A DNA stretch of 25,958 bases. It comes from a virus. Location: IMG/VR virus record IMGVR_UViG_3300047557_003241, positions 1 to 25,958 of that record; one strand, 5' to 3'. The first letter of the stretch is position 1. Every line of letters begins with the position of its first letter. A program made the translations under genes and the position numbers. A model generated the notes under the pieces. That model did not search any database. It had not been told where the DNA came from and saw only the letters and a list, made by a program, of their open reading frames with translations. This document shows positions 8,648 to 13,211 of this stretch, piece after piece.

Positions 8648-9169
8648 ATTATCCACAATATTCATCATATTGGAATATTTATCCATTGTTAAGATACAAT
8701 GTAACTGACTTATGGTAGACATTGCATCTTTATGCCAGATGGCGATACCACCTGCTTTCCGCCAATCCTCGATAACACTCAAAGTATCATCGATAATGAC
8801 AGAATCTTGTGTAGCGTACTTATATTTGTGACGCTTACCGGGAACAAAGTTTGGTTTCCAATCAATAAGATGTTCATCCAACCATTTAATCTTTTGTTTT
8901 GAAATCTCATCGAATGTTTCTTCGTATGCCGTAGACGAAAGAATTTCTTTAGGAATATTAACAAGTGTTTTCAAAAAGAAAATTAATTGTGCAGCATCAG
9001 GCATCATGTCGAGAGTTTCAAACTGTTTTGTTTGAATGAAATCATCAAAATTAGGACGAAACTTTTGTTTACGATCATGCTCAGCAATATTTCCATATCG
9101 CTCATTGTATCGCTTTTCAAAGTCGCATAGAACACCATCCATGTCAACATAAATTTTAGATATCTTCAT
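8642..9169 (-). CDS. HAD-type 5'(3')-deoxyribonucleotidase
   Basis: The 175-residue protein starts KIYVDMDGVLCDFEKRYNER; D9-M-D11-G is HAD motif I (nucleophile and acid/base). S79/S80 with T81 supply motif II, a Lys near 112-117 motif III, and VIIDDTL with D127/D128 motif IV. This matches the cytosolic deoxyribonucleotidase (NT5C) family, which removes the 5' or 3' phosphate from dNMPs, and is common in phages, where it may adjust nucleotide pools. It is inserted between gp59 and gp32 and overlaps the gp59 stop by 14 bases (9156-9169). The stop TAA sits within the repeat-bearing gp32 leader. The exact substrate cannot be read from the sequence. Confidence 0.8.
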   Translation of the reverse strand: MKISKIYVDMDGVLCDFEKRYNERYGNIAEHDRKQKFRPNFDDFIQTKQFETLDMMPDAAQLIFFLKTLVNIPKEILSSTAYEETFDEISKQKIKWLDEHLIDWKPNFVPGKRHKYKYATQDSVIIDDTLSVIEDWRKAGGIAIWHKDAMSTISQLHCILTMDKYSNMMNIVDNP

Positions 9170-9779
9170 GTTCTTTCAAACTTTCTTTCAGAATGTTTTT
9201 CAGTTTCACCTTGTCATAATCTAGGAATGGTGCATATTTCTCTATGCGTTTCTTCCAGTCTGGCCAGATAATTGTATCTTCAATTTTCCGAGACCACATC
9301 GGAAGAAAATTCATAATGTCATTGAGTATAATCAGCGTTTCAATTGATGTTGTACCCTGCATAACTGTTTTGAGTAACAGAGGATAATCATCGTTTACTT
9401 TCAACAATTCTTCAGGCGTATTGCATCTATCAAGAAGTGCAATTATATCCTGTTCGAATCGATATGTCAAGCTCTGGATTCTTTTCTGCCATTTTCTGTA
9501 GGTTTCTTCACCTTCGGGACCTGTAATGTCACCTACCCATTTTACATCACCTTCTAGGAAATTGGCAATGTAGAACTGTTTGAGTTCTTCTAGGTTATAT
9601 TTCCTGGAAAGTTTATAGAATGAATATTTGTCTTTCCGTGTGGCAAAGTTTGTCTTACTGACATTGGTTTTGCCATTATACCGAAAATAATCGTAAGAAT
9701 CAGAAGAAAAATGAAGCTTAATCGCATTGAACAAAGCAAAGGCAGAGAAACCACTGCCTTCTTCATAGTTGAAAGTCAT
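9156..9779 (-). CDS. gp59: DNA helicase loader gp59
   Basis: The 207-residue protein aligns well with T4 gp59 (217 residues): RKDKYSFYKLSRKYNLEELK, QFYIANFL and WVGDI correspond to T4 RRDKYFFQKLSEKYKLKELA, LIFISNL and WIGDI. The region with SIETLIILNDIMNFL matches T4 SFETFILLDSFLNII. gp59 is an all-helical protein that binds fork DNA and gp32 and loads the gp41 helicase. It lies in the conserved T4 order 33-59-32, but with two extra genes here. One base separates the upstream stop from its ATG. Assignment is secure. Confidence 0.93.
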   Translation of the reverse strand: MTFNYEEGSGFSAFALFNAIKLHFSSDSYDYFRYNGKTNVSKTNFATRKDKYSFYKLSRKYNLEELKQFYIANFLEGDVKWVGDITGPEGEETYRKWQKRIQSLTYRFEQDIIALLDRCNTPEELLKVNDDYPLLLKTVMQGTTSIETLIILNDIMNFLPMWSRKIEDTIIWPDWKKRIEKYAPFLDYDKVKLKNILKESLKEHEDI

Positions 9780-9780
9780 G

Positions 9781-10356
9781 TTAAAGGTCTTTAATCAAAA
9801 TAATTTTTTTGTTTTCACCTGTTGGTTTTACAAATAATTCTTTTAATTGTTCACCTGAATGCCATTTCATTGAAGATGATTTGTGTTGCGGTAAACCAGC
9901 AGTTTCACCAATCTTTTTCCAATTATCGGCCAAATACACTGCACCATTTTTGCCTGCACCAACAAACGTGATAATGTGTTTCAAATCATCACCATACTTT
10001 TGTTTCCATGCAATTGGTGCTTTACTTCTCAATTGTTTGAGTACCTGTGTGCCTGCATTTTTAATTGATTTTGCAAAACAAAATCGCCAATTATTTGCAA
10101 CAGTATTAAATATCTCTTTGTATCCTTGTTTAGATACATTTAAGTGTCTCAGTATATCTTTTGGTGGTGGATATACAGAAGAACCAATACCAATCATACC
10201 AATACATTCAGGCAAAAGATCATCTTGATAATAAATTAACCAATCAATTCTACGACCAACAGATGAATTTGTAGGTACATAAGAATGATTATTTACAATA
10301 ATGTTCTTGACCAACTCTTTTTGTTCTTGAGTTGTCACCTGAACCAATTCAATCAT
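9781..10356 (-). CDS. Mom/DUF4338-like GNAT-fold protein, possible DNA-base modifier
   Basis: This 191-residue protein has the features I associate with the Mu Mom / DUF4338 (DruA-type) group: an N-terminal GRRIDWLIYY strand pair, IGMIGIGSS (53-60), NNWRFCF (88-94), then a helix followed by PIAWKQKYGDDLKHIITFVG (114-133) and GAVYLADNWKKIGETAG (138-154). In DUF4338 the equivalent is NNSRFLIL, WxxxYGxxxxLLETFV and GTCYxAANWxxxGxTxG. Mom adds a carbamoylmethyl-like group to adenine in phage DNA, blocking host nucleases; other relatives act in host defence. Function here is inferred from remembered motifs. It overlaps gp33 by 4 bases (ATGA) and interrupts the T4 33-59-32 cassette. Confidence 0.55.
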   Translation of the reverse strand: MIELVQVTTQEQKELVKNIIVNNHSYVPTNSSVGRRIDWLIYYQDDLLPECIGMIGIGSSVYPPPKDILRHLNVSKQGYKEIFNTVANNWRFCFAKSIKNAGTQVLKQLRSKAPIAWKQKYGDDLKHIITFVGAGKNGAVYLADNWKKIGETAGLPQHKSSSMKWHSGEQLKELFVKPTGENKKIILIKDL

Positions 10357-10574
10357 ACAGGCAATTTAGCGGATTTCTTGAGCAGATTTAGATTCTGTGC
10401 TTCTTCACGAATTTTGGATTTAAGGGAACTTGAAATCAATGTTGAAGCAATATCAATTTCAAGTCCCGTTCTTTCACAGTAAGATACAATAGTGTCCATG
10501 ATACCTTCACCTGACATTTCTGCTAGTTGAATGATATTGTCACTAAATTCTTGAATTTCAATTTTTGTTGCCAT
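10353..10574 (-). CDS. gp33: Late transcription coactivator gp33
   Basis: The 73-residue protein reads MATKIEIQEFSDNIIQLAEM, then TIVSYCERTGLEIDIASTLI and LKSKIREEAQNLNLLKK. This matches the pattern of short gp33 proteins of aquatic T4-like phages (YCE..GLE, Lk.KI..EA..L.LLKK). gp33 bridges RNA polymerase and the sliding clamp so that gp55-directed polymerase fires at late promoters. Ten in-frame residues upstream (from 10604) lie inside the hydrolase gene and are not conserved, so ATG 10574 is chosen. It overlaps the hydrolase 3' end by 17 bases and the next gene by 4. Its place before gp59 fits T4 order. Confidence 0.82.
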   Translation of the reverse strand: MATKIEIQEFSDNIIQLAEMSGEGIMDTIVSYCERTGLEIDIASTLISSSLKSKIREEAQNLNLLKKSAKLPV

Positions 10575-11049
10575 TGTGTCTCGCATAAAATAAATGATTA
10601 CCAATCTGTGTTACATACTTCAAATTCCATTGCGGATTTACCGTGGTATTATGAAAATACATTGCTTTTGATTTGTACATTGTATCGTGTACTTTGTGTT
10701 CTGTCAAGGCTCTTCTGGCAATTGACATACTTTCTTCCCATGCACGACTATTGGTAATTTTTTTCACACCTTCACCTACCCAACTAAATTGATAGATGCC
10801 ATTAATTTTTTGATACACAACATCACAAACAGTATTGGGAAAGTTTGGATGCCTTGTGCGATTCATGGTAACTTGTGCTACGGCCAATTTACCTTCATAC
10901 GATTCCATACCAGCTTCATAATATAAATTTTTGGCCATGCATAAAACTTGTTTGTTAAATTCATCAGCTATTTTGTCCACTAGACTAGGACTTGAATGAG
11001 AAAGGTTCGGTAAGATTGCCAGTGCGGCAATCAGTAGATATCTTTTCAT
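10558..11049 (-). CDS. Secreted SleB-like cell wall hydrolase (endolysin candidate)
   Basis: The 163-residue protein starts MKRYLLIAALAILPNLSHSS, a Sec signal peptide with positive charge, hydrophobic core and likely cleavage after SHS. The rest is a Hydrolase_2 (SleB) domain: AKNLYYEAGMESYEGKLAVA with catalytic E45, QVTMNRTRHPNFPNTVCDVV, then YQINGIYQFSW-type and AMYFHN segments. SleB proteins cut glycan strands of peptidoglycan. A signal peptide means host Sec export to the periplasm, so lysis need not rely on a holin. The 16 residues upstream of this ATG are rejected because an excellent AAGGAGGT precedes 11049. That ribosome site can fold into a hairpin (separate entry). It may be the main endolysin, distinct from the GH19 tail enzyme. 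Confidence 0.85.
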   Translation of the reverse strand: MKRYLLIAALAILPNLSHSSPSLVDKIADEFNKQVLCMAKNLYYEAGMESYEGKLAVAQVTMNRTRHPNFPNTVCDVVYQKINGIYQFSWVGEGVKKITNSRAWEESMSIARRALTEHKVHDTMYKSKAMYFHNTTVNPQWNLKYVTQIGNHLFYARHNGNKN

Positions 11050-11055
11050 TTGTAC

Positions 11056-11070
11056 CTCCTTGTGAAGGAG
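11056..11070 (-). promoter_or_regulatory. Hairpin covering the hydrolase ribosome binding site
   Basis: On the minus strand CTCCTT, CAC, AAGGAG forms a 6-bp stem in which the 3' arm is the Shine-Dalgarno of the hydrolase ATG at 11049. A second stem, GCGGA/TCCGC (11072-11086), lies just upstream. Sequestration would lower translation unless the leader is shortened or unfolded. Confidence 0.6.
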
Positions 11071-11098
11071 AGCGGAACAAGTCCGCCCACCTAACAAG

Positions 11099-11116
11099 CT
11101 AATTCAGAAGAATTAG
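11099..11116 (-). terminator. Weak hairpin at the end of the barrel-protein gene
   Basis: CTAATTC, TTCT, GAATTAG forms a 7-bp stem that includes the stop codon of the barrel-protein gene. It is followed by CTTGTTAGG rather than a T-run, so it is at best a weak terminator or an mRNA 3'-stabilising stem. Confidence 0.35.
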
Positions 11117-11649
11117 AAGCTTACTTTAACGCCAAGGCCTGCGGCGTCTTCCTGGATAGTTTGGCTGCTACGGCTGACATTGAGATTCAGAGCAACCTGC
11201 TTTGTAACAGGAACAGAATATGTGCCAAAAACAACTGTTTGCTTTGGATCACCGTTCGATTCGAGCAGGCGAGTCTTTGCACCCACCAACATGAAACCAG
11301 GACCGACCTTGGTACCTGCTGTAACACCAACTAGACCATAACTAAACTCTTTAGTGGTGCGTCCACCGTTGTCACGGCCGACACCAACGAAAGGTTGTAC
11401 AAGACCAAAAGATTTTCCTGCGGTCAGTTCCAAACTGTTGATAACTGTGCCATCAGTAAATCTTGCTGTGCGGTCTTGAATACCCCATTGAACACCACCA
11501 ATTTCTTTACCTGCACGAACATATTGTGCTGTGCTATCTGCACCACCATTACGACCACTTACATTTTCTGCGTCAACAGAAACATAACTGGCTGCAAAGC
11601 TAGAAGCAGCTGATAAAGAAAGTAAAGTTGCGATTAGAGTTTTCTTCAT
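11113..11649 (-). CDS. Phage-encoded outer-membrane beta-barrel protein
   Basis: The 178-residue protein opens MKKTLIATLLSLSAASSFA, a clear Sec signal peptide with likely cleavage before ASYVSVDAE. The mature part (about 159 residues) alternates polar and apolar residues in short strands (VQWGIQDRTARF, VQPFVGVGRDNG, FSYGLVGVTAG, FMLVGAKTRLL, VALNLNVSRSSQ) and ends GLGVKVSF with a terminal Phe, the BAM recognition signal. Size suits an eight-stranded barrel like OmpA-transmembrane or OmpW types. Base composition is richer in G and C than most neighbours, suggesting recent capture or codon optimisation. Receptor masking against superinfection, or outer-membrane weakening, are inferences. Ribosome site GGAG is well placed. 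It lies directly downstream of the tmRNA gene. Confidence 0.82.
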   Translation of the reverse strand: MKKTLIATLLSLSAASSFAASYVSVDAENVSGRNGGADSTAQYVRAGKEIGGVQWGIQDRTARFTDGTVINSLELTAGKSFGLVQPFVGVGRDNGGRTTKEFSYGLVGVTAGTKVGPGFMLVGAKTRLLESNGDPKQTVVFGTYSVPVTKQVALNLNVSRSSQTIQEDAAGLGVKVSF

Positions 11650-11719
11650 TTTTTCTCCGTTTGTTGAACATAGTGGTGGGTATTCTGTTACGAGGAACCC
11701 ACCGAACCCTAAGCAGCGT

Positions 11720-11752
11720 TTAGGCTGCTAATGCGAACTTTTCGTCGTTTGC
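11720..11752 (-). other. tmRNA tag reading frame, ANDEKFALAA stop
   Basis: Ten sense codons from GCA (11752-11750) to GCC, then TAA (11722-11720), encode ANDEKFALAA. The LAA end is the ClpXP-recognised degron, so tagged peptides should be degraded by host proteases. It differs from the E. coli tag ANDENYALAA at two positions and resembles ANDERFALAA-type tags. Confidence 0.95.
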
Positions 11753-11837
11753 ATTTAGTTGATTTACTTTTAACGACTCTCTGTGTCGAGTTGTCCACTT
11801 CTATACTCTTTACCCTGTCGAAACCAAGACTGGCCCA

Positions 11838-11912
11838 TCATAAAAGGACTATAACAAAAACTACTAAAACTATAGTTATACCAAACAACCACTTTACTAC
11901 TTCGTCGTTCAT
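11838..11912 (-). CDS. 24-residue membrane peptide encoded inside the tmRNA intervening segment
   Basis: In the 88 bases between the acceptor CCA (11925) and the coding-piece 5' end (11836) an ATG at 11912 opens 24 codons ending TGA at 11840-11838, one base short of the mature 5' end. An AAGGG ribosome site lies five bases before the ATG. The peptide begins MNDEVVKWLFG and continues with thirteen residues that are all I, V, L or F apart from one T, so it should be a single membrane span with a charged N-terminus. No tmRNA function requires this segment, and most of it would be cut out. It might be a holin-like or regulatory micropeptide. I know of no named family. Confidence 0.6.
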   Translation of the reverse strand: MNDEVVKWLFGITIVLVVFVIVLL

Positions 11913-11994
11913 ATAATCCCTTTATGGTGGACCAGGCGAGAGTCGAACTCGCGTCCAGAATACATTTCTAGTTGCTTCGTACAACCATATTCAC

Positions 11995-12023
11995 ATTATA
12001 CATTAAAAATTCTTTTATGTCAA
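11995..12023 (-). promoter_or_regulatory. Consensus sigma70 promoter of the tmRNA gene
   Basis: Minus-strand TTGACA (12023-12018), 17-bp spacer, TATAAT (12000-11995): both hexamers are perfect. The predicted start, about seven bases after the -10, is near 11988, which fits the beginning of the acceptor piece. The -35 overlaps the stop codon of the oxygenase gene. Confidence 0.9.
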
Positions 12024-12565
12024 TACTTCAATTCATCACATTCAAATAATTCGTTTTTAGGAACACTGTATCCAAAGACCCAAAGATTTCGAAATGTGTT
12101 ATCTCTGACCGGCAAAACCTCATGTTCAACTTCCGAAACAGGATATACAATTAACATGCCTCTTTTCATTTCAATAAGTTCACCATTAATACAAACTTCA
12201 CCACCTAAATTTTCGGTTACAACAATGTTACAGTGTAAAGTTACTGTATCTTTTCTATAAACTGGATCTTTATGTTTTTCATAATGTCCTTTAAATGGTT
12301 CTGCCAATCCGCTATAAATTCCTTGGCCATTTGCAAATATCGTTCTATATCGACTCAATATATTATATTTTTTTTCTATTCGATCTTGTATTGTGTAAGC
12401 TTCCGAAGGAAAAATAATGTGTTCGTTTATAAACCTCGTTGTGTGTCTCTCACAGTGTTTTGTATATTTTAATTCTTGATTTTTATATTTGCTAAAAGTC
12501 CATTCAAATAATTTTTCACACTCATAATGAGTTATAAAATTTTCACAGGCAAAAAAATTATGCAT
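12020..12565 (-). CDS. 2-oxoglutarate/Fe(II)-dependent oxygenase
   Basis: Starting at ATG 12565 the protein (181 residues) begins MHNFFACENFITHYECEKLF. The iron ligands are visible as H98-K-D100 in HYEKHKDPVY and H148 in EVEHEVLPV, with R159 (NTFRNLW) as the probable 2-oxoglutarate anchor. A GGEVCINGEL turn lies between them, as in prolyl-4-hydroxylase-like folds. Such enzymes hydroxylate protein or small-molecule substrates; the substrate is unknown. The longer frame up to 12604 would lie wholly within the nuclease gene, so the internal ATG, overlapping that gene by eight bases, is preferred although no good Shine-Dalgarno precedes it. It ends the oxygenase operon just before the tmRNA. Confidence 0.75.
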   Translation of the reverse strand: MHNFFACENFITHYECEKLFEWTFSKYKNQELKYTKHCERHTTRFINEHIIFPSEAYTIQDRIEKKYNILSRYRTIFANGQGIYSGLAEPFKGHYEKHKDPVYRKDTVTLHCNIVVTENLGGEVCINGELIEMKRGMLIVYPVSEVEHEVLPVRDNTFRNLWVFGYSVPKNELFECDELKY

Positions 12566-13211
12566 TTTTTTTATAAAAGTCAATCGCCTTAACCAAACCC
12601 TCAATATGGTCTGTTGTTTTTTGTTTAAATATTAGTGGTTTTTCGTTTTCTACGGCCATAATAACAACCAAATCATTAATTGGTTGACCAATCAGTTCTT
12701 CATACATGATTGCGTATGCCGTTGTCTGCCAAAAATAATCTTGAATATCTTCTATGCTCTTGATTTTTTTGGATGTTTTGAAATCAATGACAGACAATTT
12801 ACCTTCAAACTCTGCAATACAGTCTACTCGACCTGCCATTCCAAGTGTCTTGGACCACAGTGCAGTTTCTTGATAATGTATATTATTTATCCGATCTAGG
12901 TGTGGCCGAATAGAACGGAACATTTCCAGTGCATCCGGCATGATATCACCAAGTGGTTCATTGTTCAAATATCGTTCACATAAGGTGTGAACATTGGTAC
13001 CACGGGAGGTGGCTTTCTTAGAAATACGATTCGCTTCTTGCTCACCTACACGCCTGCGCCATTCCATGATGGCCTGTTTTTTCTGTGCACCAATAACTGT
13101 GGTGACAGATGGCAACCGAGTGCCATCTTCTAGTGTGTAGTATCTTTTACCGTCAGGAAAAGTTTCAGATTTTAAATCAGTTAGATTTTTGGGTGTGCAA
13201 TAACGAAACAT
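12558..13211 (-). CDS. PD-(D/E)XK exonuclease, RecB/Cas4-like
   Basis: The 217-residue protein has the full motif set of the RecB/Cas4 nuclease clade: RGTNVHTLCERYL at 70-82, E115, GRVD at 127-130, IDFKTSKK at 142-149 (the D...DxK metal site) and a C-terminal QTTAYAIMYEE carrying the QxxxY motif. No cysteines are arranged for the Cas4 iron-sulphur cluster. It would degrade or process DNA ends, perhaps in recombination or in host-DNA breakdown. It lies three bases after the YkgJ gene and overlaps the following oxygenase. Similar short nucleases are frequent in T4-like aquatic phages. Confidence 0.83.
   Translation of the reverse strand: MFRYCTPKNLTDLKSETFPDGKRYYTLEDGTRLPSVTTVIGAQKKQAIMEWRRRVGEQEANRISKKATSRGTNVHTLCERYLNNEPLGDIMPDALEMFRSIRPHLDRINNIHYQETALWSKTLGMAGRVDCIAEFEGKLSVIDFKTSKKIKSIEDIQDYFWQTTAYAIMYEELIGQPINDLVVIMAVENEKPLIFKQKTTDHIEGLVKAIDFYKKNA

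Follow-up and report, generated by a model that had tools for sequence, protein, structure and literature searches.

The tmRNA is among the best-studied bacterial RNAs, and in circularly permuted tmRNA genes the spacer that separates the two mature pieces is normally cut out and discarded, and is generally treated as waste. The tmRNA gene of a T4-like phage contig raises the question of whether such a spacer can itself be used to carry a gene. The window considered here is the whole stretch of DNA that was analysed, 25,958 bases from IMG/VR, with T4-like genes that include a tail tube, a gp32-like single-stranded DNA-binding protein, a gp59 loader, a late-transcription coactivator, PhoH and an exonuclease. 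From comparisons of sequences, we consider it very probable that the window holds a complete phage two-piece tmRNA gene whose spacer harbours a further gene that encodes a protein, and that the spacer acts as an expression slot for small genes. The nested open reading frame (ORF) is the most unusual feature of the locus and was absent from a preliminary description of this DNA.

The assignment as a phage-encoded tmRNA of the beta-type, circularly permuted (two-piece) class is well supported by sequence. The minus strand at 12037-11665 matches the Rfam beta_tmRNA model RF01850 end to end (127.7 bits, E 6e-39; gathering threshold 84 bits), and 11986-11720 on the same strand matches the Rfam tmRNA_permuted model RF04321 (117.8 bits; gathering threshold 47 bits). 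ARAGORN separately predicts a permuted tmRNA with the tag ANDEKFALAA*. Both searches bear out the permuted gene that the preliminary description had read from the letters, and the elements it had named are where it placed them: on the minus strand, an acceptor piece with an encoded CCA ending at 11925 lies upstream of a coding piece whose GGGCCAG starts at 11836, and the seven-position acceptor match, the T-arm, the P2 pairing between the pieces and the tag ANDEKFALAA are all present. The acceptor stem GGGCCAG/CTGGTCC, as read from the sequence, has seven pairs, G3-U70 among them, and the tag is of the A...ALAA-like kind, with a resume site. The features of the gene are as follows.

11995-12023, minus strand: sigma-70-like promoter TTGACA-N17-TATAAT, 12/12 consensus positions, in a region that the Rfam beta_tmRNA alignment also spans
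11925-11988, minus strand: tmRNA acceptor (tRNA-like 3') piece with a P2 strand, T-arm, CTGGTCC and encoded CCA to 11925; 5' end predicted
11675-11836, minus strand: tmRNA coding piece with GGGCCAG start, TTGGTTTCGACAGGG, P2 strand, tag and 3' stem; 3' end approximate
11720-11752, minus strand: tag reading frame ANDEKFALAA plus stop, from ARAGORN and the sequence

The 12/12 promoter match at 12023-11995 is the only one in the 3-kb stretch scanned, and no terminator-like site was found on the minus strand between the tmRNA and the next gene. An Rfam search found no riboswitch at the window tmRNA, the glutamine type included, so control by a glutamine riboswitch, as in phage Melnitz, was rejected here. 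This absence, too, had gone unmentioned in the preliminary description. A pseudogene or decoy was also considered and rejected, the tag, P2 and promoter being intact. From its membership of the family we infer that the RNA serves in ribosome rescue and ClpXP tagging.

Phage two-piece tmRNAs are already published and are not new here. A paper on the OM43-clade phage Melnitz describes one and puts the number of two-piece tmRNA structures among public phage genomes at 53 (Buchholz et al., 2022; PMC9004378), so that the rarity of tmRNA genes in phages had been overstated in the preliminary description. What is new relative to the published phage tmRNAs is the protein-coding spacer. The available text of the Melnitz paper makes no mention of a spacer ORF (PMC9004378), and full-text searches of the literature outside subscription journals returned no report of a protein gene in a tmRNA spacer. 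A 2025 tmRNA database paper reports two intervening sequences with inserts, one a tRNA-Ala and the other a repetitive element, as well as group I introns in the tmRNA T-loop, some with homing endonuclease genes (PMC11915505). Like the window, these intron- or tRNA-Ala-bearing tmRNA genes carry further genes inside them that are removed from the transcript (PMC11915505). In contrast to the intron-bearing genes, the phage ORFs occupy the spacer that permuted genes naturally have, possess their own Shine-Dalgarno sequence and need no intron; furthermore, they encode dozens of unrelated proteins, with no endonuclease match in those tested.

In the window, the 88 nt between the mature pieces have the layout TAAAGGG-ATTAT-ATG...TGA-T, which contains the following features.

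11837-11924, minus strand: intervening segment between the mature tmRNA pieces, 88 nt
11918-11923, minus strand: Shine-Dalgarno sequence AAAGGG, 1 nt past the CCA and within the 5' arm of the spacer hairpin
11838-11912, minus strand: nested ORF of 24 aa, MNDEVVKWLFGITIVLVVFVIVLL, with its UGA at 11840-11838, 1 nt ahead of the coding piece
11914-11924, minus strand: 5' arm TAAAGGGATTA of the extended processing stem, 11 nt, pairing with 11851-11841 in the predicted fold
11841-11851, minus strand: 3' arm TAGTCCTTTTA in the predicted fold, coinciding with the final codons of the nested ORF

The product MNDEVVKWLFGITIVLVVFVIVLL has a short polar head followed by a single hydrophobic stretch (Kyte-Doolittle maximum 3.36 over 15 residues). 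Taking a hydrophobic stretch of about 15 residues or longer as the mark of a small single-pass membrane peptide, holin-like or otherwise, the window product is a candidate for this class; it has no Pfam or PHROG match. We counted a spacer as coding where a Shine-Dalgarno sequence comes right after the CCA, an ATG follows 7-16 nt on and the frame stays open for at least 70% of the spacer length, and the window spacer is of this kind. Frames of the length of the window ORF are open by chance in about 0.19-0.41 of shuffles of comparable spacers. As the ORF is short and so often open in shuffles, the case for coding is a comparative one. Searches by tblastn with the 24-aa ORF and a 64-aa spacer ORF gave no convincing match among isolate phages.

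For the comparison, viral permuted tmRNAs were gathered by a conserved 14-base D-arm motif, ignoring the content of the spacer. In this unselected beta-type scan, a Shine-Dalgarno sequence, an ATG and an ORF over at least 70% of the spacer were found in 19 of 68 unique viral spacers (at least 40 nt long), compared with 0.52 expected from shuffled spacers. Within the same 68, the Shine-Dalgarno sequence and the open frame occur together in 19, the open frame alone in 3, the Shine-Dalgarno sequence alone in 2 and neither in 44 (Fisher p 9e-12). On these figures we rejected a chance ORF. An unselected alpha-type scan gave 8 coding spacers among 47, against 0.78 expected. When the layout itself was used as the query (Shine-Dalgarno and ATG after the CCA), at least 120 viral contigs were returned, a minority of them without a permuted tmRNA by ARAGORN; the corresponding alpha pattern likewise returned at least 120 viral contigs, and in about half of these the permuted tmRNA was sufficiently complete for ARAGORN to call it. 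Once duplicates are removed, the beta-type set holds at least 72 unique coding spacers in at least 47 ORF families (grouped by a simple 3-mer rule), and there are further families in alpha-type genes, Melnitz included.

The products of the beta-type spacers range from hydrophobic peptides of 19 aa up to soluble proteins of 60-73 aa, and a strongly hydrophobic stretch is present in 33 of 74 unique products among the matches listed. The position of the stop codon falls into a few classes: among the 99 unique coding spacers listed, 46 have, as in the window, a UGA 1 nt ahead of the coding piece, in 35 the frame reaches the predicted RNase P site, where the coding piece begins, without a stop, and 18 stop earlier. 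One locus with a 122-aa ORF, L154, was left out since ARAGORN apparently puts its coding piece in the wrong place; the spacer ORF there (L154:433-1174) has a weak, sub-threshold similarity to GNAT acetyltransferases (Pfam E 0.03). The spacers of two alpha-type loci, L324 and L428, seem to carry two consecutive short ORFs, the second of about 38-44 codons reaching the spacer end.

The coding spacer is found in many uncultured phages and one cultivated phage and in no bacterium examined, the beta-type comparison comprising 18 unique bacterial spacers. Bacterial beta-type permuted tmRNAs (19 genes, 18 unique) have spacers of 4-43 nt without such ORFs; this sample came from a DNA-pattern search, and Rfam-family searches of betaproteobacterial tmRNAs mostly matched standard tmRNAs. 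The window tmRNA scores above the gathering thresholds of RF01850 and RF04321 over the full model; it differs from the bacterial members examined, with their spacers of 4-43 nt. A search of 84,980 bacterial and archaeal species for the Shine-Dalgarno-ATG pattern after the CCA gave 15 matches, none of which lies in a permuted tmRNA by ARAGORN, and the alpha pattern was found in none of 385 alphaproteobacterial genomes. Ten permuted tmRNAs of isolate phages found by BLAST (Marzo, X1, Rb1, XacN1, UF_RH6, PA_L9, SM1, DLP_6, QDWS595 and BUCT-ZZ01) differ from the window in having plain hairpin spacers with no spacer ORF, and coding spacers are therefore a property of one branch of phage tmRNAs, not of all. 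The isolate-phage genes (L304-L313) are mostly unannotated in Xanthomonas phages X1, Rb1 and XacN1, Pseudomonas phages UF_RH6, PA_L9 and SM1, Stenotrophomonas phage DLP_6, Alcaligenes phage QDWS595 and Synechococcus phage BUCT-ZZ01; UTS52133.1, a CDS annotated in the last of these, overlaps the tmRNA acceptor piece.

The cultivated phage with a coding spacer is Melnitz (a Methylophilales phage, MZ577097), which resembles the window in being T4-like and in having a permuted tmRNA with a spacer ORF. Its spacer contains a Shine-Dalgarno sequence GGAG and an ATG followed by 41 codons to the spacer end and onward into the coding piece, and no CDS is annotated at the site. The two differ in that the Melnitz tmRNA is of the alpha type with a glutamine riboswitch (52.8 bits), whereas that of the window is of the beta type without one; their spacer ORFs are unrelated, and only the Melnitz frame continues past the spacer end.

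Most of the ORF families tested show the signature of purifying selection, with pN/pS of about 0.1-0.4. The 24-aa family (12 sequences) has a value of 0.34 and a pair of 64-aa spacer ORFs one of 0.095; most other beta-type families lie at 0.2-0.4, with 0.64 in the two-sequence family W, and alpha-type families range from 0.15 to 0.36. For the subfamily of the window the value of 0.42 rests on few changes, and the differences between the ORFs of the window and its closest relative, L122, are nonsynonymous. Over 15 unique 24-aa sequences the entropy by codon position is 0.62/0.32/0.92, and the 24-codon frame is kept in all nine window-subfamily loci (9/9), among which the tag and the 3' end vary. 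In a relative, L468, the Melnitz spacer protein is kept across an in-frame insertion of 24 nt (pN/pS 0.38). The 64-aa ORF is common to the alpha-type locus L385 and the beta-type loci L163 and L180. Furthermore, a 73-aa spacer ORF, that of L096, matches phrog_419 at E 9.7e-12, with a Pfam PGDYG match just above the cut-off.

The nested gene is also part of the predicted structure of the precursor. In the predicted fold, the spacer is a long hairpin that prolongs the acceptor stem (MFE -63.2 kcal/mol, z -5.8), and in 71 of 72 unique coding spacers, among the matches listed, the Shine-Dalgarno sequence is predicted to be paired with the 3' end of the spacer. Taking one sequence per ORF family, the arms of the same spacer pair at a mean of -7.57 kcal/mol compared with -4.71 kcal/mol for permuted arms, and 0 of 20,000 permutations reach the observed value; the arms therefore co-vary even though the ORFs are unrelated. 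Some bacterial spacers too start with TAAG and end with CTTATGAT, which argues that the pairing of the spacer ends is partly ancestral. A likely history is that the loop of a bacterial hairpin was enlarged by an ORF, the 5' arm becoming the Shine-Dalgarno sequence and the UGA of the UGAU end becoming the stop codon.

These features suggest how such a slot could work. A single precursor RNA would be transcribed from the strong promoter, and ribosomes, loading on the nascent RNA just past the CCA, would translate the short ORF. Transcription of the 3' arm, which is the last codons of the ORF, would then let the hairpin close, hiding the Shine-Dalgarno sequence and the start codon and prolonging the acceptor stem. 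RNase P and the 3' processing enzymes would then excise the spacer to leave a two-piece tmRNA working with the host SmpB. The outcome would be a burst of small protein per transcript followed by the tmRNA, from a compact and self-limiting slot filled in the window by a putative single-pass membrane micropeptide and elsewhere by small soluble proteins. What the window peptide might do at the membrane is a guess, with takeover, superinfection exclusion or the timing of lysis as candidates.

Alternatively, the spacer could be non-coding, with the ORF a by-product of a hairpin whose 5' arm is Shine-Dalgarno-like and whose CTTATGAT end contains a UGA by chance. Some bacterial spacers start with TAAG or CAAGG and some end with CTTATGAT, all without ORFs, and many viral spacers are plain hairpins. 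Nevertheless, the excess of coding spacers over shuffles (19 of 68 against 0.52) and the association of Shine-Dalgarno sequence with open frame, the pN/pS values mostly of 0.1-0.4, the PHROG match of L096, the 24-nt indel that keeps the frame and the presence of the same ORF in two tmRNA lineages make this very unlikely. The same selection on the amino-acid sequence in most families tested, together with at least one product in a known protein family, also weighs against the ORF being a cis-acting leader, in which translation across the spacer would melt or time the processing hairpin and the peptide itself would be irrelevant. Such a leader would agree with the Shine-Dalgarno sequence and the ORF 3' end being the two arms of the processing stem and with the high diversity of the ORF proteins (at least 47 families), but on balance we regard it as unlikely.

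A further possibility ties the ORF to trans-translation: the processed mini-mRNA would end at or before the stop codon, and the product would be tagged or released according to tmRNA activity, in an arfA-like manner. The 35 of 99 listed spacers without a stop before the coding piece and the 46 of 99 with a UGA 1 nt ahead of it point in this direction, and there is a precedent in Carsonella, where smpB reads into ssrA, which is expected to give a non-stop mRNA (PMC4131195). However, UGAU ends are present in non-coding spacers as well, so that the position of the UGA may be a processing requirement, and 18 of the 99 listed spacers stop earlier; translation may also finish before cleavage. An arfA-like gene would have no in-frame stop after processing, and in the window the UGA lies 1 nt before the predicted cut. 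We hold this tie to be improbable, and it is similarly doubtful that the RNase P cut leaves a non-stop or barely stopped spacer message that is rescued by the same tmRNA, with the level of the protein reporting or limiting trans-translation during infection. That the phage tmRNA is a decoy, competing for host SmpB rather than working as a rescue RNA, is extremely improbable: phage DS6A has a form with the tRNA-like domain only (PMC11915505; PMC4131195), but in the window, unlike DS6A, the tag frame, resume site, P2 and promoter are intact.

If phages do use the spacer as a slot for small genes, it would be a reservoir of unannotated phage genes at a fixed and searchable position. Dozens of unrelated small proteins would occupy it, one of them in the cultivated Melnitz, where expression is directly testable. 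Such a locus would also provide a natural example of a transcript that acts as an mRNA before it becomes a structured RNA, and in which the final codons of the protein serve as the processing stem as well.

The closest sequences to the window tmRNA are viral, with L122 98% identical over 267 nt and the coding piece of L180 93% identical, and the best match among 19 sampled bacterial permuted tmRNAs scores 50.9 bits compared with 460 for the best viral one. Since the nearest sequences are viral and the bacterial matches poor, the gene may have circulated among phages, and the capture from a betaproteobacterial host suggested in the preliminary description is not borne out. Naming a host from the tag was dropped, as tags differ even among phages with near-identical acceptor piece and spacer. 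Exchange has been modular, with spacer ORFs, tags and tmRNA bodies as the units. The alpha-type L385 and the beta-type L163, which share the 64-aa ORF, are 84% identical in the spacer and 59% in the tmRNA coding piece, whereas the window and L180, so similar in the coding piece, have unrelated spacers. In a comparison with window 12017-11629, L122 is 98% identical from the promoter region through the acceptor piece and the spacer into the first part of the coding piece; beyond that, a different tag (AANDSRFALAA) and 3' end take over, so that the tmRNA gene appears to have recombined internally at the resume site. Many phage permuted tmRNAs (L039, L083, L090 and L177 among them) encode tags of unusual length, about 24-31 aa, for example ANADTFDFSAMSFTGNTVSGKSKVALAA, and such tags are common to viral tmRNAs with different spacers.

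The gene order in the window is exonuclease, 2OG gene, tmRNA, two extra genes, gp33, DruA-like gene, gp59, NT5C-like gene and gp32, and the neighbours of the tmRNA are as follows.

12558-13211, minus strand: exonuclease, upstream neighbour, PHROG match (phrog_298)
12020-12604, minus strand: 2OG-Fe(II) oxygenase-like gene, upstream, Pfam 26.1 bits, just below the cut-off of 27
11113-11649, minus strand: downstream ORF of 178 aa with a signal-peptide-like N-terminus and no Pfam or PHROG match
10558-11097, minus strand: cell wall hydrolase / endolysin, Pfam Hydrolase_2, phrog_938
10353-10604, minus strand: late-transcription coactivator (gp33-like)
9156-9779, minus strand: gp59-like helicase loader

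A search for relatives of the 2OG gene found none. The 178-aa ORF has one close relative, in L122 (96% identical, near a tmRNA), and two remote ones (L123/L124). In Melnitz, a PDDEXK nuclease gene precedes the tmRNA, and the gp33 and gp59 genes follow it downstream; the two tmRNAs, being beside corresponding genes, therefore occupy a corresponding place, though they belong to different tmRNA lineages. Between the gp33- and gp59-like genes of the window, at 9781-10356, an ORF matches Pfam DruA, a Druantia defence protein (34 bits against a cut-off of 27). A second strong promoter-like site, TTGACA-N17-TACAAT, is present on the minus strand at 10679-10707, just upstream of the gp33-like gene.
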